64,000 nucleotides of DNA, taken from contig OX485803.1 of assembly GCA_950295325.1 (NCBI GenBank), positions 13,456,001 through 13,520,000 on the forward strand, in the 5' to 3' direction. Shown here in pieces: positions 3,001 through 57,764 of this stretch. A program made the translations under genes and the position numbers. The notes beneath the pieces were generated by a model, which made no database searches, was not told the DNA's origin, and was given only the letters and a program-made list of their open reading frames with translations. The first letter of the stretch is position 1. Each line of letters opens with the position of its first letter. This stretch comes from Polytrichum commune (taxonomy: Eukaryota > Streptophyta > Polytrichopsida > Polytrichales > Polytrichaceae).

Positions 3001-6000
3001 TGCATTTATTTGAATAAGTGCAATGTATGCCTCTGCAAATGATACTAACCAGATATTTCACAGGGCTTCCGAAGGCTCATCCCAGGTAACAAGGACTTCT
3101 CTGTCTCAGCCTCTTTTGACGCAAGTTCGCGACCTGTGGCATCACGGAGGGATCGAGCTTTTGGCCTTCCCCCTGCTTTCGAAAGTCTCGTTGACGATGA
3201 AAGTGACTCGTTTTGGAGTAATTCCAGTGGTGCGGATGTTCAACCTACCTTGTCGAATTTCGAGAATGTTGCTGATGAAGATACTTGGATGAGTCTGAAT
3301 AGAGGCACTCCAGACTTTGCAAATGTTGCCGATGAGGATACATGGGCAAATTTGAATGAAGGCCATGTAAATATGGATACACGATTTTCATATTCTGTGT
3401 CAGACATTGGCACAAGAGAGGGGCCTAGGCTGGCCCAACCATTAGTTGATGAATCACCAAACACACTTGTTTTGGTAAGTATCAGTTTATTTCCTGCATT
3501 TTGTTTTTATATACCCATTACCAAGTAGCCACAGTTGTGAGCACCCTTCGAGATGCTGGAAAGCTGTTTGAGATTATGTATTGATGGATGTATCCTACAA
3601 TCCTGGGAAGTCCTTGATGTGTTGTATGCTCTTGTACCATCTCTTACACCTGAATGTGGGCCTTGCAACAGCTAGAGCAGCAGCTGAAGGACATGAAATT
3701 GCAGTATCAGGAACTTCAATCATCTATGGAAGCCAAGGTAGGAATGACATGTGGAAAAATTTGAAGAAAAAATGATTACTTTCTACTGGTATAGAGAGCC
3801 CTCTACAGTACTTTCTGATATTGTACAATATTAATCTTACAGGCTTCCATTTTCTTTGAACTGGAACAAATTGCTACTGGAACAAAGTGGAGGCAATTAA
3901 TATATTTAACTGTTGCAGATTCAGGAAGGGTTGAAAGATGCCCTTACAGAATCAACGAAATCAAGGCAGCAACTGGATGCATTACACAATGAAAATCTCA
4001 GGCTTCAGGTAAAAAAGCATACCACTATTGGCATGTAGAGAATATTGGTGATACTAGACAGCAATGTCACGTACATGGCTGCTAGGTTGCACTGCAGTAA
4101 CGTTTTCTCAGTGCATGAAATCGGGACAAGTAACCAAATAGAGGTTGTGCTTCCTCAGCACATCATTCTAAAATCCTGTGTATGTCGAATGTGATTGCAG
4201 AAATCTCTAGCTGAACAAGAAAATTTGAGCATATCAAACTCTATTGGTGATGCCACTTACATGAAGGAACTGGAAGCACAAGTCAAAGAGTTGGAGAATC
4301 AGCTCAAGAACTGCAAACAAGAGAACATTGACTTGCGTACTGAGAATGTGAAGCTCCATGACCAAGTTCTTCAGACACAGACGGCTCTTGAGCAAGGGGT
4401 TCAGGAGAGGGTATCTATGGATGAAGAAAATAAGTTTTTCAGGGAAAGATTACGAAGTCTAGAGATGGGAATTCAGGACGACTGTCATCAACAATGTGAC
4501 GGGGCCTTTGACTGCGAGGATGATCTTGCTCATGAGTCACCTACAGTAATCTCGGACAGTAATATGTGTGCTGTATGTCAGTCAACCACTGACAAGAACA
4601 CTGAAGGATATTCAACGCAAGTTGAAGCATTGGGAAGTAAGGACCTGGCTACAAACTTTGAAACCTTAGTATCCAAGGTGAACAAGAGACGGCTTTTTGA
4701 TAGTATTGATGATGGTCTTGGACAAGCTCTTGGGGAGTATGAACTTGAGAAACCACAAAGCTGTGATGAAGTTAGTGTGGAAGTTGACTATGGTTTACAG
4801 AAGAAGTTCATGGGCAGGGAAGATGGAATTGTCACTGCTCTGAGCTGCCTGTGTTGTCGTATCAAACAACTTGTGGATCCAGTAGCCAGTGAAGTAGAAT
4901 TTGGAAGGAAGGAGCCAAGAGTTGCTCAAGCTGGAACAAGTCTGAAGGTGGCTTTAAATCGTGCAAGGAATCTTGCAAGCCAACTTCTCAAAGATCTTCA
5001 TGTTATAGTTAATCATGATACTCAGTGCTTGGAGAGTCATCTTATGTCAAAGGGGACAGTTGCTACAAACTTGGAAGCTCTTCAGCTGGTGCTGTTACAG
5101 ACTGCAGATGTTGCTCTCTGTTTATTTCACAAATTGTGTTCAACGGAGCCTCAGATGATCTACAAGAAACTGCAGCAATTTGTTCATGAGGTACTGGGAG
5201 ATGGAGCAAAGTCAACAGTGATTGAGTCACATGCACATACGCTGAACAAGGTAATAAATGCATTCTTCATTTTTATTATAATGATTATTGAAAGGAGATC
5301 GGAGTTGTTGTTGGTGGTATTCTCTCAGCTGGCAAGTGTCACAGTAAGGCAGAGCATCAACTGGCTAGCTGGAAGGACCTCAGATTAAGTTGAGCTAGAA
5401 AGCAAAGTTCAGTCACAATACAATCATCATAATGATTGCATTATTTTGAACGGTGGTCATGCAATGATCTTGGAGGCTCAAAACTTCACTTGAAGTCCCT
5501 AAAATGTTGCACACTAGACAACAGGCAGATAATTGACTAATTGACTGAGTCTAACACAACTGGGATACGACCTTTTCCACGAGACTGTCATGTTATCAAC
5601 TCCTTAAGCCTGCAGTGACCAGCATATTCTCCGCACAAATAGGACCTGAAAGGTTCTGTATAATTAAATTGTTCATTTAAAAGATTTCTTGGTTTCATTA
5701 CCAAGGCAGAGTTATTGTCCATGCAGACGTTTTTGTCAAAAAAAGATACCACAAACATACACAAACCATATATGTAGTTCCAGAGAGTGAGGATGTGGTG
5801 GATGCAACCTTAGTCCAATAGTTGCCTGGTCCCCTAGTGTATCTAGGACCACATGGGGATGTGGTGGCAGAGGAATTACAAATGAGAAAGGACAGGACCG
5901 TGGCCAAAGACAAGAGTATTGGCCATTGGCTAATTGGGGCTTTCTCCGTGAACAGGAGGGCAAAATGACACATCCTGTAGATACAACAAAGGTTGAAATG

Positions 6001-34950: not shown

Positions 34951-36238
34951 TCCTCTCCCTAGTGCAGCGTTCTCGTTAGGCTTAGTTAGTGTTGATAATA
35001 GTATTAACCACATGCGGACTTTACAAAACACGAACTTCAATGTTCTCATTGGTGGGTTGAGGTTGAAACCAATTCCTAAGACACGCATGAATGTTCCACT
35101 TTGTCAACTTTAGCCATTGCCATTGGTACAACCCACATTGGAGGTTGACGTCCAACTGCTACAACATGAGTTTGCCAATGGGCATCGCGAAGGCAATAGA
35201 GTTATATATGTGTCCATTAAAAAATGACAAAGGTGAACATAAATATGTTATTCAAGACACTTATGGATCATGGGATAACCGTTGGCGTACAAGTAATGAC
35301 TCCTTTGAGGTTTTCTCATCCACTAACCCTTTGTAGAAATGTTGAAGGGGAAATTGATTTGGGTGTGGGAGGGGGAATCATAGTGTCAATGCATGGCATC
35401 GTCACATAGACCGCCTTCATGCTAATGACCCACATTGGCACTACTCACTTGGTTGTCTGTTCCTAGATCTTCCTATGGGACCGTTGGATTGTTGCTTGAT
35501 GCAATGCATGATGCCAATAGGTACCATTCCCTATTTTGAATCATTGTTTACTAGTTGTGATATTCATTGTTTATCATTACCTGATCCATTTCCTTATATT
35601 GCCTAATTCCAAGGGTGTTCCAAGGTCTACAGAATGCAAGCATGTTAAGACAAACTTGGTTCACCGGATCCATAGGGTGAAAGGTTTTGGCATTTTGTAT
35701 CTGCAAGGGTTCAAGGAACTTCTACCCACAGACCATTATACAAGTTGTGAGAAAGGCGCAACAAGAACACTTCATACCCCTTGACATTGGATGTCTTCGT
35801 GCAATCACTATATATGGTTAGTTATAATATGTGTACTTTACAATTCCAAATGTCCATGGTCTTCTTTTGTAAGTTCCCTTTCCCAAACTCTTTATTGTTA
35901 CACAAAGAAATAGTTATTACCATGGAGGAGGCTCCTCGGAAATATTATGACGAGACACCTCTTGTGAAAAGATCTTCAAAGGGCATGTAGATGGCTATGC
36001 ATGCAACAAGCAAAAGGCAACATCACACATAAGGAAATTGGAGTTGGAGAAGCTATTGGTAGTGACAAAACATGTAGATGGAGATGATATATTTTAAGTA
36101 AATTTTTTAATATATTCTCATCATCATTAGTATTTCCTATCCACCACCCTTACCCAAATTCCAATTCATATAAATTTATGGTCCTCAATATATAGATCAA
36201 TCATTGTTTTGGGACTGCATCCATCCCTAAAATGACTT

Positions 36239-36422
36239 TGGAGCAACTACAATGATTGCTAGACCATAGAGGGCTCTCTATTCCAAAACAAAATAATTAT
36301 TTTACCCTCAAGATTTGCCACATTTCATGCTCAAATTCACTAAGACCAACTTGTACCGGGCATATGGAATTTGCATTCCATCACATGTAAAGATGAAATA
36401 GAGAGCCCTCTACAGTAACTCC
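36239..36422. mobile_element. Small MITE (GAGGGCTCTCTATT family)
   Basis: Inverted ends of about 40 bp, starting TGGAG and both containing AGAGGGCTCTCTATT, bound 184 bp of non-coding DNA. A related end sequence occurs in kinesin intron 10 (about 3,793-3,815), and a longer relative lies at 45,146-45,525. The target duplication is unclear. Confidence 0.6.
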
Positions 36423-38712
36423 AGTGGAATTTGTTAATTAAGCAAAATGGTTGTGATGGTGAAAGTCTAGCGCAATGTCAAAGAATTCCTTGGGATTTCC
36501 TCCAGGTGAAGTAAAGGGGAAAGACTTGAAGTTGTGGCTAGTGAAGCCTCATTCTAGGCGCATGTGAGTTTTTTTCCCTTTTCATTTTCACATTGTGTCC
36601 TTCCTTCTTCTTTTTTAAGTATGTGTTATGAATTTTTGGGGTTGGTTGGTTACATTTAAAAGAAATTGTTGCTAAAGAATTCAAGAGCATGTGGATCATC
36701 TAAGCGAGTTTGTTGAGAAATGGTGAATCCTTCTTTTTTTAGTGGCCCTTCATCAAATGTTTCAAACTAATTTGCATTTTACCACATCCAAGAAGTTAAA
36801 AGACTTCATTGGAGGTCCACAAGCCATCTCATGGGTACTCTACAAGTATTAAACATATCTTAGAGAGATTGATTTTGTTGCCAATAAGACTTCATAGCTT
36901 AATGTCATAATTATATTGACTATTCAAATTGATGGCACATGTATATGAAAAGACATATTTTACCTCTCAAGGGTTGCTACATCTATGCTTCAAGTATATG
37001 TCCTTATTGAAAACATTGCCATTCTTGCCTTCGTGGAGAATGGCACCAATGACCACCCCATTATAGTGGAGACTTTCAATTTTGTCAAAAAAACAAGTTT
37101 GCAAACTATGGCTAATGTATTGAGTGTGTAGTTAGTTTAATAGGGATCGTGAATAACTTGGAGGTGTTTTTGAGTGCTCGTGCTATTGACCTCATTGTTG
37201 CAAGGCTTGTCATTCCCAATGTTCCATCCCCTCCTTCATCGACTCGTGCTTGGAATACACACAATTCTGCCAAAATCGGGGTCTTCTTTGAGTTTGCTCA
37301 TGCTTATTTGCATGAGGAAGCTTCCATGCTTACATTCCTTCTAGAGATTAAACAAGTTAGGGACGATGTCAAAACATTTGTGGGCGCATATGAATTTATA
37401 GTAGCCAAGGATTGGTGGGGCTTCAATGAGTTGCATTTGTGTTCGATTTCATAAATCTTGAATGGTAACCCCTAAACCCCTTAACCTTGAGAATGATCAT
37501 GACATGTTTTTCAAATTCTTTTATGTTTACCACTTTTAGTCAAGTTTCCTAATGAATGTGTGTTTGTTCATGCAGACTAGACATTTCCACATTGTTATGT
37601 TTGTTCACAAGAAGTGGTCCGCATTGCAATTTGCTATCCACAATAACAATGGTATATCAAAGTTGGAGTTGGAGGATACCAAATCTTCTCCAACCTTACA
37701 AGTTCATCTTTGCGGCTCATGACTTTTGGCATCTCTTGGAGAGGTGCTATATATATAAACATGTTTTGTTTCAATCATGACTTAAAATCTAAAATGCTAC
37801 ATCGATTGCAAGTGTGCCCATTTGCACATATAGGCGTAGTGGCCACAATGTCATCGCATTTTAGGGAGATCATGCTATCTTTGATGCCATCCTAGCTCCA
37901 ATGTGCAATACAAATCTTGCTCTTGACACATGTAATATTGTCTTGGATGTAACCTCACTTGGCAATGACGATGAGGCCCTAGTTCAAAAGGTTGAAAAGT
38001 GCAATTGCATTACTAAGTAAGTTGGTGGGGTTTGCATTCTAACTTAGTTCTTTAAGGTTGCCTCACCAATCGTCTTGCCATCTGGTTGTTGTTTGGTGGT
38101 GTGTGCAGAAAAATGATATCCAACATGTTGCCTCCCGGCTCAATCATTATGCCTCCATATGCAGAGAGTATAGCAAAGATTATGTCACCCACCTCCTTTT
38201 TGGCACCTTGTGGTAGGTCTAGGCGACCTTCTCACAACCCATTCATAGATGCATGGCAGAGGAGTATAATACGAGGGTAGTGCATAATTACGCATAGACC
38301 ACCATAAATGTGCTTGGTATTTGGATTAATGTGACTATGTTTTCAACCTCTGTTGAACTTAATATATATTTTGTTGCACTTGTCCCACCTACGTGCATTA
38401 CGGATTTTGATATTCTAAATTGTAATTGTTTACCTTTGCCCAACTGTCCAATTATACTTTATGCATTGTCCAATTGGTTTTGAATTTACATTTTCATGTT
38501 GAGACTAAACATGTATACAAGCAATTGAGGTTTTTTGGAGTAAACTCCATCATTATATATAAGTAGGGTGTTTTCTTTCAACTTCCCTATCATTACATAA
38601 TATACTAAATCTTCATTATGTGACTTTAAATACCATGGTGATAGGTTACCAGTGTGTGTTTTACCCAAAAAAATTTGTTTCCTCGCCACTCACGTATTAT
38701 CATTTACTCCTT

Positions 38713-38742
38713 ACTGCTCACCGTTCATATGATAGCACTCCT
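38713..38742 (-). repeat. Right terminal repeat of the decayed Mutator-like relative
   Basis: Inverted, this reads AGGAGTGCTATCATATGAAC followed by GGTGAGCAG. It closely matches the end of the 11.3-kb element (GGGGAGTGCTATCTTATGAG). Confidence 0.7.
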
Positions 38743-39900
38743 CATATCCTTGCCTAGCCTACATTGAAGTTTTATGTTGTATCCTAAGTGACATCTTTTG
38801 TAAATAAACAACAAGGATACTATGAAGCCTTTGTGAAACCAATCTCCATGAAGCTCTCAATTCTAGGTTCCAAATCTCAATGGGATTATACAAATTGCTA
38901 GCAATTGAGTATGAAAAAGTGGCCAAGATAACTTATAAGGATATTGGCCTTTATCAAACTTCGGTACTAAAGTGAAGATGTGTAGACCCCTCTTGCAAAA
39001 TAATTGGGTTGGGGATGGAGCAAAGCTTGAGACTATGGAAGAGCATGTTTCGGATGGCGTGCAAATTCCGGTGTTGTTCCAATAGGACATTGTTAACTTT
39101 TGTCCCACCAAAGCATGTATAAACATTTGTTTATAGTTTTTAGTGTCACATAAACTATTTGCAAAGGGTTATACTAATTTGTCTATAATTAAAAAAATGT
39201 CATGGGATGCAAGCATGGTAAAGTGGACCAAAAAAGTGTTTTGGTGTACAGAAGCCATAAAGTTTTTGGTTAAATGTCTAAAAGTAACAGCAAAATGTTG
39301 TTCGAATATATCTCTAACAGTGTAAAATTCAAAATTAATCTTAAAAAGTGAATTATCTCAAAAATAATGCTCAAAAGCAACTGGTTGAATCTAGTTTTGG
39401 ACATAAGTTTCACGACCTTAAGTGTTTTGAACTTGAAATTTATTTCATTTTTCTTGATTTTATTGTAAATTTGAGGGCATCACAAAAATGTAGAATTCAT
39501 CAATTTTGATGTAAACTAACTCTATCAAAACAATCTTTGAATAGTTACTTGCTCAATATTACCTACTTGCACACCACTTGCATCTTCTTCTAAAATATAC
39601 ATAATTTTTTGAATTTCTTTTTTGTCAACATAAATTTTGTGGCTTTGTAAATCAATATTTTAAAAATGTTTATGATTTTTTTTACTGAATTGAAAACTAG
39701 TATATGATTTGAATCACTTTCACATAAACCTTTGCAAGGATCAAGAGCTACCCATTCTATTGTGTCGCAGCCCACGTTCATACTACATAATTGTCAAATA
39801 TACTCATCATTATTGTCAATATAGGTATCTATTTGAGAGAAATGAGCTCTTTCAATGTGATATTTAAGAATTTTGTTAGTATGGTGTTGAAATAATCTTA

Positions 39901-46467: not shown

Positions 46468-46477
46468 ATTTGCATTC

Positions 46478-46560
46478 GAGGGAAGCTATCTTATGAGCGA
46501 TGAGCAGTGAGCGGTGAGCGGTGAGTAGTAACACATGAGCAATGAGCAGTAACATATGAG
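46478..46560 (+). repeat. Left terminal inverted repeat with heptamer subrepeats
   Basis: The GCTATCTTATGAGC core is followed by six or more TGAGCGG/TGAGCAG/TGAGCAA motifs, two of them after TAACATATGAGC-like spacers. The repeats are candidate transposase-binding sites. Confidence 0.8.
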
Positions 46561-46807
46561 CAATGATTCCAAATTTAGTAAAGACACACGGGTTTAGGGT
46601 ACACAACCAAAATTTTGAGAAATTAATTGCATATTTTCAATTGTAAATTGCCAATATTTTAAATGAAGCACAAGTGAAAGGGCCCTATTTCCATAGATCA
46701 TTTAAAACACTTTCAATTCATTGCTGATTTTTATTATAATAATCCAAACCAATACATGTCATTTATTGACATCCTTATACATGTAGTTACAACCAACACT
46801 TGCACAA

Positions 46808-46927
46808 CTACTCACATTCCACAACACCATCAAGCTCAAGTAGGTGCATAACCTCATTATACGTACATGTAGGTGCCATAATTGTGAGCCACTCAAACTG
46901 CTCACGGGTTGAATTAAGGCCCAGAAT
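46808..46927 (-). CDS. Second, downstream copy of the transposase terminal exon
   Basis: After a TTTGTAG acceptor, a 39-codon frame ends in CTYNEVMHLLELDGVVECE and a TAG. It parallels the end of the main transposase frame (YTYNEVMRLLELAGIVECE). The surrounding non-coding DNA (46,700-46,940 versus 47,270-47,490) is also duplicated, but the two copies differ throughout, so the duplication is not recent. Coding potential is preserved, so this could be an alternative last exon. It could also be a leftover of element recombination. Confidence 0.55.
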   Translation of the reverse strand: MLGLNSTREQFEWLTIMAPTCTYNEVMHLLELDGVVECE

Positions 46928-46974
46928 CTACAAATGAAAGGAAATTAGATATTAGAAATAGTCAATATGTAGGT

Positions 46975-47210
46975 AACTACTAGGTTTTGAGACATCCGCC
47001 TGTGGATGCGAGTTGTGTAAGAGACTGGTATTAGGTCTGTATCAACCCGGGTTCGAATCCGGTTGGTTACATTGACTGGTGCTATCCCAAATTGAGCTAG
47101 TGATAAAGCAGGAATAATTTATAGGCGGATACCAAGAAGACGTTACTACGCGGATGTGCGTAGAATCTTCTCAATTATTTTTTATTTTTAGAAACTTGTT
47201 ATTATTTATC
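46975..47210 (+). repeat. Possible tRNA-derived SINE
   Basis: An exact RNA polymerase III B-box, GGTTCGAATCC, sits at about 47,050. An A-box-like GAGTTGTGTAAGAG lies about 40 bp upstream and a T-rich tail follows at about 47,178-47,192. It lies between the duplicated transposase 3' ends. It does not fold into a full tRNA cloverleaf by eye. Confidence 0.45.
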
Positions 47211-47383
47211 CATGTCAATCAATCAAACCGCTCACGGTTGGGTCGTAGTCTAAATAGAAATGAAGTTACTGAATCATTTGAAATACTTCCAGCCCATTGC
47301 TGATTTTTATTATAAAAATCCAAACAAAAACATGTCATATTTTGACATTCAAATATATGGTACTTAATAGACCATTTGCAATA

Positions 47384-50300
47384 CTACTCACACTCTACAA
47401 TACCAGCAAGTTCAAGTAGTCGCATGACCTCGTTATAGGTATATGTAGGTACATGAATGAACTTGTCACTCTCGTAATCCACCTTGCACAAAAATCTAAA
47501 CACATAATAAAGATGTTTACAATACACCCATTTTCCTTTCTTTCCCAATGCATGAGAGGACATTTTTGTGAAATCCGGGCATATGCAATGCGGGATGTCG
47601 CCAATTGTGACATGGTAGGTGATATCCTGCTTGGAGACAATGTTGATTATCACTCCAAAACCCGGATATGGAATGGCAGTGACCCCAACCACATAGTAAC
47701 CCTCCATGAGCCCGGCGCTCTCCCATTTGTTTTTGTGATCCGCTAGCGGTGCTGTTGGATTACGACGCACTATCTTTCCAAACCTGAATGTAGGGTGGGC
47801 GTCTGGGTTTGGTGGCATAGAAAAATGCGAGCGAGGGATGGGGAGAGTTGCGATTGTTGAAAGCCTACGACGAGGGGACAATGCCTCCCTCTGCTGTAGT
47901 TGAAATCCAGCATCTTCAAGTGCCAAAACCTCCTCTCGCGATAGATTGGTACCTATCTTCACCGGCCATGTGTTGGGTACTATAGGCCAGTCCAACACAT
48001 ATTTCTTCTTACTGCCATTCACACAACGTTTGATGTCGTCAGGGCAAAACCAAAATTCATACTCCACGTTGTTGGGAGAGCGAAATTCCTTCCTGAGCCC
48101 TTTGTATGTTTGAGCAGGTGTGCCATGTTTTCCAGTCCCGACTTTGGCATTGCACATAGTCCCTGTGATGGCCTGCAGTGCCCAACATCGTTTGGCTGAG
48201 TTGGGTGGTAATCTTGCAATGTGCCACTTGGAAGCAAGACAATCTGTCTCTAACACGGATGTAGTATGAGCCACACCATGAATTGTAGAACTCAACGATT
48301 CCTCTATGCGTTGACGGATCATGTCGTCCACTGTAGCTTCATATAAACAAGACATCTTGTTGCCGGACTGTTGGAGCCATTTGTTGTGTACAGTTTCTGC
48401 AAGGTTGCATGTTGGCATTTCCGCACGCTCTTCTATTGTCATATCCTATGAACAACACACAAATACAAGGATAAGACAAACATAAGATAGATTATATATC
48501 TAGGTTTGGGTCGTTCAACCCAAAATGGCTGCCACGTTTGGGTCGAACAACCCAAACTGCCTACAAGGTTTGGGTCGAACGACCCAAACTGTTTGTTGTT
48601 TGTTATGTACAGTCTCTGCAAGGTTGCATATTGGCATTCCCGCACGCTCTTTTATTGTCATATCCTATGAACAACACAGAAAGACAAAAATAAGAAAAAC
48701 ATAGGATATATTACATTGAATAATGAAGTTTGATATGTACTTACAAGTAGCATATGGCCACCCCATTGTCTGTAACGAAAGTGCCAAAATCCCAACCACT
48801 CTGAAAGGCCAAGGATGCCTTCTTCGGAGGCAGCTCCAGATGACAACCACCAAGAACGAATCACATGGTACTTGGTCTCAGCGTCGTCCATTGTTTTCGC
48901 GTCTTTGTAATCCTTGCATATTTGTTTGTGTTGAAATTGCAAGGATGGTTTGATATACTTTTGGGTCACCTTATCCAAGCTTGCGGACCAATGGAAAAGA
49001 CATGTACGCTCACGTGCAACCATGGGTAGACTTGGATCACCATCCCCGTAAATCGCCCTCACCGCATTCCAATTAGCTTGAGCACTATGAGCCATAAACC
49101 CTTTGAAGTTTACGTTTGGTACATCATTATCTGCCATGACAGCATTCAAATTTTTCCAAAAAAGAATTTGCGCTGCACCATCTTCAGATTGCATGTCACA
49201 ACACGCAATATTCAACACTTTATAGTATCGACTGTCGTACACATGGCAAGTCATGGTCGTCCAGTCCTTCAAACGTTTGACATGGTCAAACATAATCCAT
49301 GAATTCTCCATATCCCCACCGACTTGCATCCTCTTCACAAGCTCCACACCACTACCTGGAAGGTCTACAGACACCTTAAAAATAAACACTTTGTCCTTTG
49401 ACTGCCCTGGGAACCGACTACCATGGACGAATTTGAAAGCAGAGTGGTCTTTGAGCGCCATAATACTATCCATAGTTCCCATTCTACTACGCAAAAAACG
49501 CTTTGATCCAGATACAAAGTTACGACAATTTGGAGAGGCAAGAGTGCTGAATTTGTCCATGACGACCTCTAGGGATGAACCAACCAAGTGATGGCCTTCG
49601 ACATTTGCGGGAGATTTGAGAAGGTAATCGGCCAAGAATGGTTTGCTCGCCGCCATAAGTATGGCTGAATTTTTTGCTGTGGGTGTTTTCAATATTTCAT
49701 TTGTAACGCATTGGTATGTCATGTCCAATGATTCACGGCATGTGCCATTGGCCACAGGGTGATCATGTACACCAAGATGAATGCAAGCCCTGGACATTCC
49801 AACGGATGTGGAGTGAATGTATATGATTCGAGCATTACACAAAGCAATGCACACAGGTGTGGAACGACATACCTTACACTCGACAGTGGACTTAGTAGGG
49901 GGAACAACACCCACAGCAAATGGGATAGGAGTTGAACCGGCCCATTCAGTGTTGTTCCGGAGGCCCCCATTGCGATTCATGTAATCACAGTAGTCATTAT
50001 GACATTGGAGATGACCAGCACAAGTAGAGCGCCGGAAGGACAGTCCAAAGTCATTTTGGATATTTGCAGTTTTGGTAGTGTACCAAGGGTGACCGTCGCA
50101 CATCTTGTCCATGCCGTCCATTGAGCGACCATACGTACTTGGAGCTTTGAGTGCCACAGGAAGCAAGAGAAATAAAACATCACCATTAAAAGAAGATGGT
50201 AAGTACTTGACTTCACGAACATCTATACTGTCAAAATCAATGGATGCAAGATCGGACTTTGATCTTTTTCTTGACTTTGTCAGCTTCAAGGCATCAACCA

Positions 50301-50847
50301 TAGTCAACCCTGTAGATGAAGGTGAAGGGTGTAGTGGAGGACGTTGAGAATGTGAGATTTGGGGAACCACCTTTTTGTACATAAGACCACAAGGGGATTT
50401 GGCTACACTTCTAAATGGAAATGGCGATGTGTTTGAAAGATCAATAGATGCACAAATGTCATCTTCTGAATCTGATAGCACAAACACACTATCATCAAGG
50501 GGTTCCACCTTAACAGGTGTGATAGAGGGAATTTGAACTGTGGATGTACCGGATTTGTTTGTCAAAATGACAGTTGAAGCTTGCATTTGAGACTCAGAAA
50601 GTCCTATCACCCTAAATGAACCAGGTCCTAAGATCCACATAAAACCAACATCAGTTCTATTTTTTGGAACCAAAATCGTTTCATACACCTCTCCATCTGC
50701 AGAGTACATCTCATGCTCTAAATACATGGTTCCTATCTGGAGGTTGAATCTCAAACTAAGTAAATCCTCTGAAACACTCACATGACCATCATCTTGGAGT
50801 GGCAAGATGAAGGGAACAAAAGATCCATGAGCTCTAATGGTAGCCAT
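47384..50847 (-). CDS. Mutator-like transposase with GCM/FLYWCH-like and SWIM zinc fingers
   Basis: The gene has two exons, 50847-48745 and 48445-47384, giving 1,054 residues, joined in phase through GTAAGT and a TTCATAG acceptor. Residues 1-110 form an unrecognised N-terminal domain. Near 117-126 VFVLSDSEDD looks like a SUMO-interacting motif. Residues about 245-365 hold a Cys/His-rich region (STCAGHLQCHNDYC, CIHLGVHDHPV) like GCM/FLYWCH DNA-binding domains. The RNase-H-like core spans roughly 500-690, with CHVYDSRYYKVL, CCDMQSEDGAAQILFW and ERTCLFHW. A SWIM finger (HCICPDF...YCKHLYYV) lies near residue 986. At the FMAHSAQANW position Mutator-type enzymes usually carry the second catalytic Asp. 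Here it is His, so this copy may be inactive. Its intron contains three palindromes and a duplicated exon start. Confidence 0.87.
48381..48720. repeat. Duplicated exon start around a palindrome array in the transposase intron
   Basis: About 120 bp containing the acceptor and the first about 65 nt of exon 2 occurs twice (48,381-48,500 and 48,599-48,720). The second, upstream acceptor (exon base 48,664) leads to a frame that stops after about 47 codons. Between the copies lie three TTTGGGTCGNNCGACCCAAA-type palindromes. Confidence 0.82.
48505..48589. repeat. Three 20-bp palindromes, array B'
   Basis: Three copies of TTTGGGTCGNNCAACCCAAA or TTTGGGTCGAACGACCCAAA are spaced about 32 bp apart. They belong to the same family as 53,313-53,494. 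Confidence 0.93.
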
Positions 50848-51369
50848 AGAAAATCAAAAGAACATATGAACAACACATCACAAAAATATAGGGTGAATGT
50901 TGCTTTTGTATAGAGTTGTGTGAGGAAATGAATGGAAATGAAAATGTGTGATACAATAATGGATGGAGATGAAAGCGTGTGATACATAGCATCTGATAAT
51001 ACAGAAGTGGATATAATACAATAATAGTCAGAGACTATTTACAAGCAAAATATACACAAAACGGCGTCAAATACTAAAAGGATTGGTAGAAATTTAAAAT
51101 ATATATGTGTGGACTGACGCAGATGTAGAAAGAATTAAAATTGGTTGGAAAAATAAATTATTGATCATTATGAATAGAACAAAGTAGGTGTCAGAAAATT
51201 TTGGCGGATATAACAAAAATAAACACATAATGACAAACGCGTTGAAATATCTCGTTCATTGAACGCCAATTACAACATGTGATCGTAATATACGCCGGAT
51301 TTTGTGAGATAGATATATTGGAAGAATAAATGATAGTACCTGATAGAAAACATATCATAGACACCAATA
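50848..51369. promoter_or_regulatory. Divergent intergenic promoter region of the element
   Basis: 522 AT-rich bp separate the ATG of the transposase (minus) and the first ATG of the cargo gene (plus). It must contain at least the transposase promoter. No TATA is clearly placed. Confidence 0.5.
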
Positions 51370-54300
51370 ATGGTAGACGATGTAGAGAGAACACCCGTGA
51401 GGCCGAAGAGAAGACGTAGGAAAACTTTGTATTTCACTTCTGAGAAAAAGAGGTTCAGACTCAGTGTGGGAAAGAATGATGCAAAAAAGGAAGGGAAAAG
51501 AAACTTGTTGAATACGGTAGAAGAAACTGTGAAGACACTGGATTTTGATGCGATGGAGGATGATGAAGGTGCAAAGAGCAAAGAAGATGTAGATGATCGT
51601 ATATCAGAGTCCGAATTGAAGACGGGTTCAAAGAAGACGACAAACAAAAACGTAAGTCAGTTCAACGTTCACATAATTTGATAGTGCATAAGTTGTAAGT
51701 TAGGACGGAGAACCTTGTACGTTCACTCACATGTCATGTAGTAGCAATTTATAGAGGTTATAAATTGGAGAGGAGAAACCCTATACGTTAATGCACATGG
51801 TATATAACAGAAATTTAGGAAGGCTAGAAGTCAGGAGGATAACGCACAAGGTTTATAAGAGCAACTTAAGAGACGAGAAGTTGAGAGGCGAAACCATGTG
51901 CGTTAACGCACAGGGTTTATAAGAGCAATTTAAGAGGCGAGAAGTTGGGAGGTGAAAACCCTGTACGTTAACGCACAGGGTTTATAAGAGCAACTTAGGA
52001 AGGCCGAAGTTGGGAGGAGAAACCCTGTGCATTAACGCATAGGGTTTGTAAGAGCAACTTAATAAGGCCAAAAGTTGGGAGGAGAAACCCTGTGCGTTAA
52101 CGCACAGGGTTTATAAGCGCAACTTAGGAAGGCCAAAGTTGGGAGGAGAAACCCTGTGCGGTAAGAGCAACTTAATAAGGCCAAAAGTTGGGAGGAGAAA
52201 CCCTGTGCGTTAACGCACAGGGTTTATAAACGCAACTTAGGAAGGCCAAAGTTGGGAGGCGAAACCCTGTGCGTTAACGCATAGGGTTTGTAAGAGCAAC
52301 TTAGGAGGCAAAAAGTTGGAAGGCGAAACCCTGTGCGTTAACGCACATGGTTTATAAAAGCAACTTAGGAAGGCCAAAGTTGGGAGGAGAAACCCTGTGC
52401 GTTAACGCACAGGGTTTGTAAGCGCAATTTAGGAAGGCCAAAGTTGGGAGGTAAAACCCTGTGCGTTAACGTACAGGGTTTGTAACAGCAATTTAGGAAG
52501 GCCAAAAGTTGGGAGGTAAAACGACTAGGAGAGCCTAAAATTAAAACAAATATCTATTGTATGAATTTAAATCGATGTTCAGAACATAGGAGCAAAAAAA
52601 CTATTCAAAACGAGGTTAGAATGCAAGAAATGACAAATATGACTACTCAAGTACTCATGCAATACGTTATAGGAGCTAGAAAATGACACAAAATAGCATA
52701 AATTTTTTTTTGCCCCGAAACCCAAAATCTACGAGGTGGCCCAAAACAAGGAAATAGATAGAAGAATGAGAAAAGAAAATCATTTCAAACCAAAACAAAA
52801 TATCAAAAGAATTTGTAGCTACGGAAATTTAGATAATATAGCATATTTTTGTTTTTTTTTGGATCCCATTAGCATTTTTTCCAGATTTTATAAGTTTTCG
52901 CAAATCTACGAATTCCAGTCTCGGCCCTGTGCGTTAACGCACAAGGTGTATGTGGTAACGCATAGTGGCTAGAAAGTTGCTAGCGCAGACCCTGTGCGCT
53001 AACGCACAGGGTCTACTTGCCTAGCTAGAGGCTTCGCAAAGTTGGGCAAGTAGACCCTGTGCGTTAACGCACAGGGTCTGCGCTAGCAACTTTCTAGCAG
53101 CTATGCGGGGCCACGAAGAGCCATACTAAATATGGCTGCAGGGACAAGTAGTATAAATTGCCACAACCCCAAAGCATTCAGTTTTTTTTCTCTCCTCCGT
53201 CGGACCTGAGCTCATCGCTGCAAGCTCTCTCATCTACAGGTGCAGTACAAGGTTTGTTTGCACTTTCGTGGTGACTGGGTAATTGCGCATAATCAGGCGT
53301 AAATTGCGGACAGTTTGGGTCGGTTGACCCAAATTGTGAGCATGGTTTGGGTCGGTCGACCCAAACTATGAGCATGGTTTGGGTTGATCGACCCAAACTG
53401 TCTACCTAGTTTGGGTCGGCCAACCCAAACTGTGAGCCTAGTTTGGGTCGAACGACCCAAACTGTGAGCGTGGTTTGGGTCGTTTGACCCAAACCTCGCG
53501 TCCAACTTTGTTAGACCTGTAGTTGGACGCACAGGGTCTGGCCTTGTAGTTTTGGGGTGAGCGGCCATCCTAATCGTACAATATTTAAAGGTGCAAATGA
53601 CTGTGTCTAGGATAATTTTTGTCATTCTTCCCTGTGTTCGTGGTATTCTGTTGTTATTGTTGTTGCTATTGCTGTTGTTTTTGTAATGTTATTGCTAATG
53701 TGTTGCTATTTGTTTTGAAATATTTATGAAACTTATTTCATTTGTTTTAGGACCAATCAATGGATTTGGAAAGAACGACTCCTATTTCTACTGATGATGA
53801 TTCCACAATGCATTCAACTCAAGATCATCCATCTCAACAAGTTCATCAGGACATATCATCAAATCTTCATAATAAGAAAAAGAAAAAAATAAATGAATCC
53901 CTCGATGATTTTGACTCGGATGAAGATAATGATGGTGACAATAAAACTTATCAAGAGAAAGTGTGGGAGCTTACGAACAAACGAAAGGTCAATTCCACTT
54001 CTACAATTTCTTGAATCCGTGCTGGACCTAATGCTCGCTTGCGTGTACCCTTATGTCGCATGGTTCCTATGCCGATTATGTGTCCTGCTTTGAAGGGTGA
54101 CATTACTAAATTGGAGGCTGATTTTTTCAATGGTTATCGTGATGGTGACCGTGTGTTTTATATATCGGCCACCGATTCTAAGGGAAACTTTCAATTCGTG
54201 GATGATGAGGTTCGCGCATCTTGGAGCCCAAATTGGGCTCAAGCCAATGCCCTGTTTGAATTTCAATTGGATACAGATTTGTCATTGACGTCATACAAGA

Positions 54301-57300
54301 ACAAGATGTTTTTTATATGGGATGGAAATCACAGATTTTTTGTTTGGAAAAATTATATTGACCGCGTATATACCGAAGATTATGAACGTCATGTCTTTGT
54401 GGATTCTATCATTTTGGCGCCCGAGCCTGACGACATTCCAAATTTGTTGACTGCTATGCATGACATCAACAAGTAATGTTCTTACCTTTTTTTTACACTT
54501 ATTTCTAGTTTATATTTTGTTTTCCAAATTAAATCATCATGAATCTAATCAATTTAATGTTTCTTTTAGGTCAACCGAAAATTCTCACGTATCCACCAAT
54601 TTGGTGCATACTTTATATCGGATGCAAAGTATTGGCACCTTGCCTTTGACTTCCTTCAGAAAACAACTGGATCCAAAGAGTTATAAACGATGTGAGGAGA
54701 AGTCCGTCGAAACTTGGTATTCTTTGACACGACCAATTTTTTTGGATTACATGTACAGTGTAAGTTCTTCTACCATTGCTAATATGTGCCTTATGTTTAT
54801 TCACCTTCATTTTACATTACATCTATATGAACTTATAAATATTGACTTTTGTTTGATTTTTCAGCAAGAACTTGCTGAGGCTAGCGATATTGCTCTCAAC
54901 CAGTACAATGAAACTCATCCTCTTGAACGGACATCAGACGGAGTTTCAAAAGTAATGTCCGCAGCTGTCAACAAAAAACGTGCAATGTTATCTTCTAGTT
55001 TTACGAAACAACTAGCGATTGCCGATATCAACCTTACCTCTGCTTTCCTTGAAGAAGTTAAGCACCATTGGGGTTCATTTTCGGTGCCTGAAACGCTACA
55101 AGAGAAACTTCATCGTGTTGTTGTCAGTAATGTGGATGCAGAAGTCAAAGTTGGATGGCTCAAGCTTTGGAATGGCAATAGATTTGACAAAGATGCATTG
55201 CATTTCCCGAAATCGCCCCTCTCTGATTCTGCACTTGATGATTGGTTATTAAAGTCTACATATTGGGCACAGTTGGAAAAAAAAGCTATCGAAGAGCTTC
55301 AAAGTATTCTTTCATCTCCTCTTCAGTTGCCTACAGATGTGCCTACTCTCTCCGAGTATATCCAAACCTGGAAGTTTGCGGCTTTCAATTCAATATTCTA
55401 TCGTGAATTCCAAAGCAGAAAAGTTAAAAAACACAACGGTTGGGATGAACAACCTAATATTGATCTTGCTATGAAACGTGTATTATACAGGTACAACCTA
55501 ATCTTATTATTTTTTTGATTTTTTTTATTCCATTTGTCAAATTGTCATGGAATATTTGACTTACAATATTTTTGTGTGTAGGTATTTTCGATATGTTTTG
55601 ATTCCACATAAATGCGTTATAGGAGAACCTCGTTTTTTCCCAAATTGGCGTGACACTGGTGCAGGAGATTCATGCATGTTCACTACTGAGATTTGTTTGG
55701 ATTGGTCGCTCCCACACTATGAGGATTGTGGTTGGTATCTTGATTGTCCTAAGGATGCATGTCCGTCAAGTGAGAAGACAATCCGTCAGATAAATGATGC
55801 TAAAAATGTGGATCCTCGTGATACTGCAATTTTGCAAGCACAAATTGTGCAGCTTAAACTTAGAGAGCCAGAACCAAAAGAGACAAAACGTTGTAAGAGG
55901 AAACATGTTCCTGAAACCAAAATGCAAAATCAATCGGAAATTTCACAACATGAAGAATTGCTTGTTCTTTCCAATGATTTGGATAAGAATCCACTTGGAG
56001 GCGAAAGTTCAAAGTCTGGGTGCGATGTATTGGAATTCCATTACTCGAGCACCTATGACGCTATTCATCGTGCGCCAACGAATGTTTTGAGAAAAGAGTT
56101 ATTCATACTGAAGAACTTTCTCACGCTCTCTTTTGCTCGATCTACTGCTGTCAATAACAAGTCTGAAGGGGTTGAAGTAGGCCATCCTGAGTGGATCCAA
56201 TGGCGGACATTTCTTGAAAACGTAAGTATTATTGTTTTGGTATTTTCTGTAATGTTTTTACTTTCATTTGGATTTTATTTTGTGTCTTATATTGTGATAT
56301 GTTGTGGTATTTCAGTTCAAAGACAATCGCGAATTTCATGTCATGGAAAGTCCGACTCCATTTGCCGTTGACTTGGTTTTTCTGCAATTTCCCGACGGTC
56401 TTGACTTCAACCTCTCCAATAGACCTGCTGAAATTCCTCTTTGGAATAAATATGACAAGAATTGGATGGTTGCAACAATGTCCTTGTGCAAGTCCATCTT
56501 GTCTGATGATGGCGTCCTCATAGTATTTTTTGCTATCGATATGCAAACCAAGAAGGTTTTGAATTCAACCTTACACAACGGCAACATGAAAGTTCTTAGG
56601 ACTTTTATTTGCCTCAATTCGTACATGGTGTTCAAGGATCCGGAGTCTCCAACCTACACCGTAAGTATAACATATCACAATTGTTTCTATTTAATTATTT
56701 TGGTGTTATTTGCATTGTATATAGTTTTAACACAATTTATATTTTTTTGTAGACTCCGGCATTTATGGCTCATGTCTTGGTAAGGGATTTTACTACCACA
56801 AAATCCACGAGACAACCAAACTCCACTTTTTTTGGCACTGGATTGAAAAGCAAAAACTTGCTTTTCAATTTTGTGGATGAAAAAAACATGTTTCTTCAAA
56901 AATCGGGAAGACCTTGGAGGGGGCCATATCAAAAATCGCCGCGTTTTTTTCAAGATCTTATTGAATTGTTTACACCATCGAATGGACGCGTTGTTGATTT
57001 GATATGTTCCACTGGAGCTTCTATCCTAGCAACACGCGCATGTGGCAGACATCTTCTTGCATTTGAGGGTGATAATGACATGTTTGAGCACATATTGAAA
57101 CCGCTTTTGGAAAACGTTTTGAAAGAGGGGTCATCTAAGGAGAATATACAAGATCTCACAAAAGAAGATGATAACCTCTCCGATGAGGAGATGCTTGAAT
57201 TTGAGTGTGAGTAAGTTTTAATACAATAAGTTTTTATTCAATTCATTCGTTTCATTCAATTCATTGGTTCATTTTGATTTCTTCACATTATTTACATGTT

Positions 57301-57571
57301 TCATCGATTTGATTTCAGGAATACGATTGGAAAGAGGACATGTCTCCCGTTTTGGGCACATAGACAATTCCTACGAAGTCCAAGCCGTAGCCCGCGTCTC
57401 CCATCATATGCCGAGAATGTTGCAATTGCAATGTTGAATCTCGAAGATTCGGATCCAAATGAAGAATCTTGCTATAGTTCCAAAATCAATTCGCAATGCA
57501 AAGGTGCTCGAATATATATAGATGACGAGGCAAAAGATAGTTTCATGTCTAGTGCTACTACTGATGAATAA
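51370..57571 (+). CDS. Cargo gene: ParB/Srx-like motif plus degenerate DNA-methyltransferase-like region
   Basis: Exons 51370-51651, 53751-54472, 54570-54759, 54865-55490, 55582-56221, 56316-56660, 56753-57210 and 57319-57571 join in phase with good GT-AG sites, giving about 1,171 codons. The N-terminus is basic (RPKRRRRK, a likely nuclear signal) and then acidic and low in complexity. Near codon 285 FFIWDGNHRFFVWKNYI resembles the GxHR box of ParB/sulfiredoxin-fold domains. C-terminally, AVDLVFLQFPDG (about 837-848) sits where beta-class amino-methyltransferases have DPPY. FFQDLIELFTP..GRVVDLICSTGAS (about 1000-1025) matches their motif X-motif I order, but with DLICSTG in place of the usual D-P-F-x-G-S-G. 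The catalytic and SAM motifs therefore look eroded. One in-frame TGA lies at 54,012-54,014. The fold calls are inference; the gene model is strong. Confidence 0.72.
51772..52520. repeat. Tandem array A: ~12 units of ~63 bp with GTGCGTTAACGCAC palindromes
   Basis: Units comprise a GTTGGGAGGAGAAACCC start, the palindrome GTGCGTTAACGCAC embedded in a 28-bp perfect palindrome in the best copies, then TTTATAAGAGCAACTTAGG. The first two copies are degenerate and one (about 52,150) lost half its palindrome. The array lies in cargo-gene intron 1. Confidence 0.93.
52968..53098. repeat. 54-bp-arm hairpin containing array A palindromes
   Basis: Arms 52,968-53,021 and 53,045-53,098 are complementary with one mismatch, separated by a 23-nt loop. 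Each arm contains its own GTGCGYTAACGCAC palindrome flanked by AGACCCT/AGGGTCT. A solitary GTGCGTTAACGCAC also lies at about 52,928-52,941. Confidence 0.93.
53148..53200 (+). promoter_or_regulatory. Candidate internal core promoter in cargo intron 1
   Basis: GTATAAATTG (about 53,150) is followed 30-40 bp downstream by a TTTTTTTTCTCTCCTCC pyrimidine patch, the usual plant TATA/Y-patch spacing. Transcription from here would use the ATG at 53,760 and place array A upstream as enhancer-like DNA. The exon at 51,370-51,651 also splices in phase, so both starts are possible. Confidence 0.45.
53313..53494. repeat. Array B: six 20-bp palindromes
   Basis: Six TTTGGGTCGNNCGACCCAAA-type palindromes repeat every about 32 bp, separated by CTGTGAGCATGG-like spacers. 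The central bases vary (GGTT, GGTC, GATC, GGCC, GAAC, GTTT) while the arms are kept. Confidence 0.93.
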
Positions 57572-57684
57572 ATTTTTGGACTTCATGTTGTTTATCCTTC
57601 TCAACCCTCTTATTACTAAACCCTAAAATCATCATTTTTAAGGCCACAATTCTACGGTTATAGGATATTGGTGGCCCTATTACC

Positions 57685-57754
57685 AAAATTTTCATCTTCC
57701 TCACTGCTCATAAGTTACCGCTCATCGCTCACCGCTCATAAGATAGCACTCCCC
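57685..57754 (-). repeat. Right terminal inverted repeat with heptamer subrepeats
   Basis: Inverted, this reads GGGGAGTGCTATCTTATGAG, then GCGGTGAGCGATGAGCGG and a further TTATGAGCAGTGAG, matching the left end. It is followed by the 10-bp target copy. Confidence 0.85.
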
Positions 57755-57764
57755 ATTTGCATTC

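Follow-up and report, generated by a model that had tools for sequence, protein, structure and literature searches.

Among described transposons, the systems closest to the element reported here are the VANDAL elements of Arabidopsis with their VANC proteins. VANC21 demethylates introns and upstream regions in its own family, where it binds YAGTATTAY repeats (PMC5735166), VANC6 uses other motifs than VANC21 (PMC5735166; PMC10398659), and the tandem repeats that VANC proteins target, intronic or upstream, vary from one related element to another (PMC5735166). Mutator-like elements (MULEs) more widely carry accessory PMD, FAR1, SET and OTU domains and unidentified open reading frames (ORFs) (PMC6446971). 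Two further precedents come from outside this class: fusions of a ParB-CTPase with an N6_N4 methyltransferase (PF01555) are known from phages (in eukaryotes, the ParB fold is most often represented by sulfiredoxin; PMC12704722), and DNA methyltransferases (DNMTs) are borne by the DNMT retrotransposons of dinoflagellates and charophytes (PMC5890265) and by DIRS1-like elements (PMC3266345). Here we describe a two-gene element in a 64,000-nucleotide stretch of Polytrichum commune, hereafter the window (G000:C1:13456001-13520000 of a 408-Mb assembly). Comparison of this element with its relatives shows that transposons classed as Mutator-like, with a common transposase and common ends, carry different internal cassettes, each made of a fast-diverging cargo gene (a GNHR-motif domain, a long middle and a predicted methyltransferase-fold C-terminus) and, mostly, repeated long palindromes of its own.

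The element occupies positions 46478-57754 (11,277 bp) and is bounded by exact 10-bp ATTTGCATTC duplications and by matched ends that read GAGGGAAGCTATCTTATGAGCG / CGCTCATAAGATAGCACTCCCC; within it, a minus-strand transposase and the cargo gene are divergent from each other. An initial annotation of the window had delimited a single 11.3-kb element from its ends, its duplication and its gene content, and this was confirmed. The same annotation had called it a two-gene MULE, which is supported as well, the class resting on the target-site duplication (TSD), the terminal inverted repeat (TIR) and motifs judged by eye. MULEs have TSDs of 8-11 bp. Eight complete copies, that of the window among them, were inspected: seven have an exact 10-bp duplication, each a different one, and the flanks of the eighth, C7_12, show none. 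In the three more diverged elements for which both ends could be read, the TSD measures 9-10 bp; in a fourth, the fetched piece does not reach the left end. The TIR is imperfect, with a perfect 15-bp core in 8/8 full copies.

The exchange of cassettes and the cargo-specific palindromes, neither of which figured in the initial annotation, are in our view the most telling features. The evidence for cassette exchange comes from transposases that seemed to lack the cargo gene. No listed cargo accompanies 67 of the 150 listed transposases, and when the cargo side was fetched at five such loci, all five held a cargo homologue, 29-39% identical to the window family's cargo. Full-length comparison of four of these transposases with the window family's gives 78-92% identity for three and 67% for that of T18. 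At T16 the transposase is 90-92% identical and the cargo 33%. Compared as DNA with the copy C1_63, T16 matches at 94.5% and 89.1% over the left end and transposase and at 80% over 189 columns at the right end; a similarity of 73-76% extends up to C1_63 position 5891, and over the rest of the cassette there is no blastn match. The whole T16 unit is flanked by a 10-bp TSD, and the synonymous divergence (dS) of its transposase is 0.187, with which a 33%-identical cargo is irreconcilable if divergence alone is invoked. The family appears to keep its transposase and ends while exchanging the inner cassette. At another locus, L021 (G000:C5:16864770-16874769, minus strand, about 4514-5623), kinase-like ORFs recognized by eye (RLGRGSYGMVWK, HCDLSFTNILFHFG) lie between transposase and cargo and are possibly additional cargo.

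The second component of the cassette is its palindromes. The window element contains 17 of them (arm of at least 8), with groups of 8 and 5, and the other 52.7 kb of the window contain 7, unrepeated; the nulls for palindromes were single-base shuffles. Between the two genes, tandem 64-bp units carry the perfect palindrome AAACCCTGTGCGTTAACGCACAGGGTTT (A) and precede 32-bp units that carry palindrome B (GTTTGGGTCGnnCGACCCAAAC). Every one of the eight complete window-family copies has the cores of A and B (5-8 exact sites for A, 3-10 for B); in all four elements examined that have other cargos, both cores are absent. A repeated palindrome of its own was found at 10 of the 12 other loci: AATAAGGGTGGCCGTTAACGGCCACCCTTATT at L018, AAAGTGGCATCTCGGATCCGAGATGCCACTTT at L019 and L020, TGTTTGTGCGCCAACGCACAAACA at L021, CAGAATTCTGCAnnTGCAGAATTCTG at L017 (plus one diverged copy in L026), AGGGGTTTCGGTACCGAAACCCCT at L022 and C2_1340, CAATGAAGAAGCTTCATTG at L023, GTGTCTCGGTCCCGAGACAC at L025 and GGTTTCGGGACCGAAACC at L024. 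Cargos with 54% identity or less have different types, and close pairs have the same one, namely L019/L020 (cargos 96% identical), L017/L026 (82%) and L022/C2_1340 (89% over 3.1 kb of upstream DNA, the cargo of C2_1340 not having been read). In all, nine cargo-palindrome pairings were seen in the genome, those of L024 and L025 not yet being tied to this transposase. Genome-wide, the 22-bp core of palindrome A has 444 sites, against none for its reversed control; the 6-kb stretches upstream of listed cargos hold 45 of the 50 listed sites and 0.27% of random positions. Palindrome C, the type of L019 and L020, has 36 sites (control, 0), and five of the eight cargos of its type have one within 6 kb. 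Array B is found also in the transposase intron, separated from the cassette by exon 1; T16, otherwise 89-94% identical, does not have it there. Of two decayed cargo copies, both available as partial pieces, C4_41cr retains one palindrome A and C5_25c none. The observed/expected CpG ratio is 0.83 and 0.78 in the arrays, 0.47 and 0.43 in the flanks, 0.58 in transposase exons and 0.83 in cargo exons; since the cargo exons match the arrays and the palindromes themselves contain CG, these ratios are not taken as evidence.

The element is a high-copy DNA transposon. The genome searches list the best-scored candidates only, and all copy counts are lower bounds: the ends recur in 40 scored matches each, among 486 (left) and 322 (right) candidates, and 150 listed cargo matches reduce to 115 distinct loci once exons 5 and 6 are merged. 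A divergent transposase lies within 30 kb upstream at 83 of these 115 loci and within 12 kb at 79, compared with 0, 1, 1 and 0 loci when the positions were shifted by 0.2-1 Mb. A listed cargo lies no farther than 6 kb from 34 of the 40 listed right ends, and within 30 kb of 19 of the 40 listed left ends. A genome search with the ends and the cargo, the check that the initial annotation had proposed, found both genes between matching ends, and the linked loci together with the duplications at seven of eight copies bear out its view that cargo gene and element have travelled together. It had also pointed to a decayed relative nearby with cargo remnants and the same right terminus. Both are there (Table 1), at about 8-11.5 kb from the element, not at 12-15 kb; the decayed pieces are best matched by the L023 cargo (59% over 88 aa), the window family's own cargo reaching 45% over 47 aa. 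Two window-family elements in opposite orientation lie within 48 kb at G000:C7:12033000-12080000, and the C7_12 copy carries a 1-kb insert in cargo exon 1. The assembly has seven contigs of 42-78 Mb; the plastid contig (G000:C8), with 146,561 bases, is larger than is usual for mosses, and its PsaB is nearest to 7ksq, 6l35 and 8htu, entries for moss photosystem I.

The cargo gene itself has seven coding exons, from an ATG at 53760 to 57571, with six introns that are all GT-AG. Eight exons had been claimed; seven stand, and the eighth would be an upstream exon that is in frame by our own reading. The window copy is itself broken, since its cargo contains an in-frame TGA that the initial annotation had not noted. 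Ten cargo copies were read. Two of them, C1_63 and C3_25r, keep all 1076 codons open (with an altered splice donor at exon 2 in C3_25r), C6_14r is free of stops and one base short in its last exon, the window copy has its one TGA, C3_28 has four stops, and five others are frameshifted or decayed. Between the two open copies, a single pair, the cargo has a dS of 0.197 and a nonsynonymous divergence (dN) of 0.027, a ratio of 0.139, which indicates that the cargo is under purifying selection; for the transposase of the same pair the values are 0.056, 0.011 and 0.203. Cargo exons 1-3, with a dS of 0.24-0.57, are older than the transposase of this pair, so that closely related copies, too, appear mosaic. 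The GNHR-domain exon occurs in very high numbers: two genome searches list 150 matches each, largely at different places, and these include many near-equal open copies that are about 52% like L020.

For the C-terminus of the cargo protein, several comparisons agree. PF01555 (N6_N4 DNA methylase) matches in four of seven cargo members (best 2.5e-7), the window family remaining below the curated cut-off; phrog_67 matches at 3.8e-8 and DpnA structures at 1.3e-4 and 1.5e-4. In hhalign, the cargo aligns with a profile of 17 bacterial enzymes (17 of 32 loci yielded a DPPY/F frame) at 97.5% and E 8.7e-12 over 196 columns, with motifs IV, X and I in beta order. By these matches the C-terminus is a beta-class DNA-methyltransferase fold with motif order IV-X-I, as the initial annotation had proposed. 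A working methylase is another matter. At the position of the catalytic D/N/S-P-P-Y/F/W motif the window family has QFPDG, and six other cargo types in which it could be read have D[L/I/Y]P[D/E]G. All seven have Asp or Glu in place of the aromatic residue; six retain the motif IV Asp, for which the abundant window family has Gln. Since this motif is altered in all seven types read, the cargo is probably no ordinary methylase, and we have lowered the reading as an active enzyme to probably wrong.

The initial annotation had called the cargo ParB/methyltransferase-like and had noted a DGNHR motif in it. The motif is present in the window (Table 1), and GNHR is found in 8/8 rows of alignment A2; C3_25r, left out of A2, reads GNYK, and L026 reads GDHR. 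The ParB domain itself fared less well than first stated. The ParB Pfam model (PF02195) matches none of eight cargo members, phrog_1033 (ParB-like) matches three of eight at E 0.06-0.14, always on the GNHR stretch, and hhalign against a canonical ParB profile gives 0.2%. That profile was built from motif-picked frames at 22 of 25 fetched loci, at least one of the 22 (L093) not being ParB-like. The canonical test is of little power, because the orphan protein L086 itself scores 0.28% against it. With L086 the GNHR stretch aligns at 68-72% and with four orphan proteins at 11%, and these comparisons outscore 30 and 40 column shuffles. The resemblance of L086 and three relatives (two carrying the annotation ParB-like or ParB N-terminal, one that of a streptomycin biosynthesis protein) is confined to the GNHR stretch. 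Across 398 bacterial genomes, two matches reached E 0.05 or better. One is L086 (E 0.049), matched on the GNHR stretch; the other, L085 (E 0.0074), was set aside, as its match falls elsewhere in the domain, in a short frame of 85 aa that does not look like ParB. Fifteen other prokaryote genomes gave two weak matches (E 0.036 and 0.11). A single-sequence fold of window exon 1 had a confidence (predicted local distance difference test, pLDDT) of 34.8 and was not used. We have withdrawn ParB as a firm label and treat it as a tentative lead, not a finding.

The transposase of the window copy has 1054 aa in two exons. Its exon 1 contains the motif FMAHSAQAN, likewise not noted in the initial annotation, in which His replaces the Asp of most other copies: of the six others with the motif, five read FMADSAQAN and one, T16, reads FMANSAQAN. 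Pfam MULE models did not match at E up to 5 in one search and up to 10 in another, and the SWIM model matched one of two transposase proteins at E 0.091, which is below the cut-off; the DDE-like and C-x2-H motifs are judged by eye.

Table 1. Positions of the element's features and of a decayed relative within the window.
Feature	Position	Strand	Details
Decayed cargo pieces	34952-37748	+	L023-like type
Right terminus of decayed relative	38716-38745	-	30-bp, 90% match
Left target-site duplication	46468-46477	.	ATTTGCATTC
Left terminal inverted repeat	46478-46566	+	starts GAGGGAAGCTATCTTATGAGCG; GAGC-rich short repeats
Transposase exon 2	48445-47387	-	SWIM-like C-x-C...C-x-H by eye
Transposase intron	48744-48446	-	holds short palindrome B array
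Palindrome B array	48502-48591	.	GTTTGGGTCGnnCGACCCAAAC, 32-bp units, in transposase intron
Transposase exon 1	50847-48745	-	DDE-like core by eye
Possible first cargo exon	~51370-51651	+	basic/acidic; putative, ORF kept in C3_28, C1_63, C3_25r, C6_14r
Palindrome A tandem array	51840-52516	.	AAACCCTGTGCGTTAACGCACAGGGTTT, 64-bp units
Further palindrome A copies	52925-53080	.	AGACCCTGTGCGTTAACGCACAGGGTCT
Palindrome B array	53313-53494	.	upstream of cargo ATG
Cargo exon 1	53760-54472	+	P-motif-like DGNHR 54321-54335; in-frame TGA 54012-54014
Cargo exon 2	54570-54759	+	
Cargo exon 3	54865-55490	+	
Cargo exon 4	55582-56221	+	
Cargo exon 5	56316-56660	+	motif IV position, QFPDG at 56385-56399 instead of DPPY
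Cargo exon 6	56753-57210	+	methyltransferase motif I, DLICSTGAS at 56996-57022
Cargo exon 7	57319-57571	+	
Right terminal inverted repeat	57700-57754	-	
Right target-site duplication	57755-57764	.	ATTTGCATTC

Taken at the level of the predicted protein, the cargo is most likely a self-targeting, sequence-specific DNA-binding accessory protein, and the pairing of cargos with palindromes suggests self-marking by each element for its companion protein, perhaps as an escape from silencing. On the simplest reading, the protein, probably dimeric, would bind palindromes that belong to its own family; by analogy with VANC, it would then counteract host silencing of that family, with the methyltransferase fold acting as a module that binds S-adenosylmethionine or DNA rather than as an ordinary methylase. 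The cassette would then be a self-recognition module in which the cargo is the key and its palindromes the lock, so that swapping would change which copies are served. We favor such self-directed anti-silencing, our confidence being evenly divided for and against, because the anatomy is the same in kind as that of VANC. A more elaborate version, which we consider unlikely, is a eukaryotic counterpart of ParB-parS self-recognition and has a nucleoside triphosphate-gated, ParB-like clamp with a retired methyltransferase loading on its own palindrome array, spreading and keeping the transposon open; the trading of cassettes would then resemble the trading of specificities in bacterial restriction-modification systems. 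Several observations weigh against self-directed anti-silencing as set out here. Palindromes and cargo sit in one cassette, and linkage explains part of their covariation, although it fails to explain why unrelated cassettes so frequently have palindromes of their own at similar places or why the intron array is missing in T16. The palindromes shared by close pairs come by descent, which alone explains them. C3_48373 has no repeated palindrome, and L026 has a single copy of its sibling's type; the remaining five of the 50 listed palindrome-A sites form one cluster away from listed cargo, and of the 36 palindrome-C sites, only 15 are in the 6 kb preceding a cargo of their type. Some of the palindromes at L024 and L025 lie beyond the cargo start, others upstream of it, and the upstream 4 kb of either locus yielded no transposase. 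Of seven loci with 4 kb of upstream sequence fetched, four yielded no transposase there, so that their elements are only candidates for this kind. Finally, the ParB assignment, with the scores given above, is weak.

The alternatives account for parts of the same evidence. The cargo could be a co-factor or regulator of transposition, comparable to the second gene of MuDR-type elements, with the palindromes serving as operators for the divergent promoters or for the transposition complex, and with no part in anti-silencing. The arrays do lie between divergent genes, where a shared control region would be expected, and purifying selection on the cargo would fit such a role; but the conserved cis sites are the ends and not the arrays, and the fact that cargo and arrays change together while transposase and ends stay similar is hard to reconcile with a structural co-factor of one and the same transposase. 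We regard this as possible, if rather improbable. That the cargo is instead an active methyltransferase, marking the element by N6-adenine (N6A) or N4-cytosine (N4C) methylation or by some new chemistry so that the mark protects it from silencing or nucleases, would suit the profile match across motifs IV, X and I and the motif IV Asp kept in all six non-window types read. The Asp or Glu in place of the aromatic residue in seven types, and the Gln of the window family, speak against it, and we think it distinctly unlikely. A third alternative is passive capture of a host gene fragment, with palindromes as by-products of folding or replication slippage. MULEs often capture host sequence, and close pairs share their palindromes simply by descent. 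Against this stand the open multi-exon frames with a dN/dS of 0.139, the cargo homologue at five of five sampled transposase loci and the absence of repeated palindromes from the remaining 52.7 kb of the window, and we consider passive capture highly improbable.

If this reading is true, the element would represent another anti-silencing or self-recognition system of MULEs, built from bacterial-type parts and lying outside Arabidopsis, in which accessory genes, as candidate sequence-specific DNA binders, are exchanged as cassettes under a similar transposase. The nine cargo-palindrome pairings would also make it possible to test directly how the factors of a transposon distinguish their own element from the host. 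The proposed domain pair is like that of the phage ParB-CTPase/N6_N4 methyltransferase fusions, from which the cargo differs in its altered catalytic motif, in being a eukaryotic gene with introns and in a ParB part that is unproven here. No confirmed cargo relative was found in the viral or prokaryote contigs searched, and 50,697 phage records gave weak matches, to two DNA methyltransferases (E 0.3 and 1) and one hypothetical protein (E 5). The DNMT retrotransposons are likewise mobile elements that encode a methyltransferase domain, but they are retrotransposons and their DNMTs are of C5 type, whereas here a DNA transposon carries a beta-class fold and cargo-specific palindromes. Among the accessory domains of MULEs, SET is a protein methyltransferase domain. 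Known MULEs are similar in bearing extra domains and ORFs, and the table of these in PMC6446971 names no DNA methyltransferase or ParB-like accessory; in the open-access literature searched, no MULE with ParB-like or DNA-methyltransferase-like cargo was found. The resemblance to VANDAL and VANC is one of anatomy only: in both cases a Mutator-like element carries extra genes, a fast-diverging accessory protein and family-specific noncoding tandem motifs (PMC5735166, PMC10398659), and at 10 of the 12 other loci an accessory gene goes with a repeated noncoding motif of its own. In contrast to VANDAL, the motif here is palindromic and about 18-36 bp long, the accessory protein joins a predicted methyltransferase fold to a GNHR motif, and the cassettes appear to be exchanged under a similar transposase.

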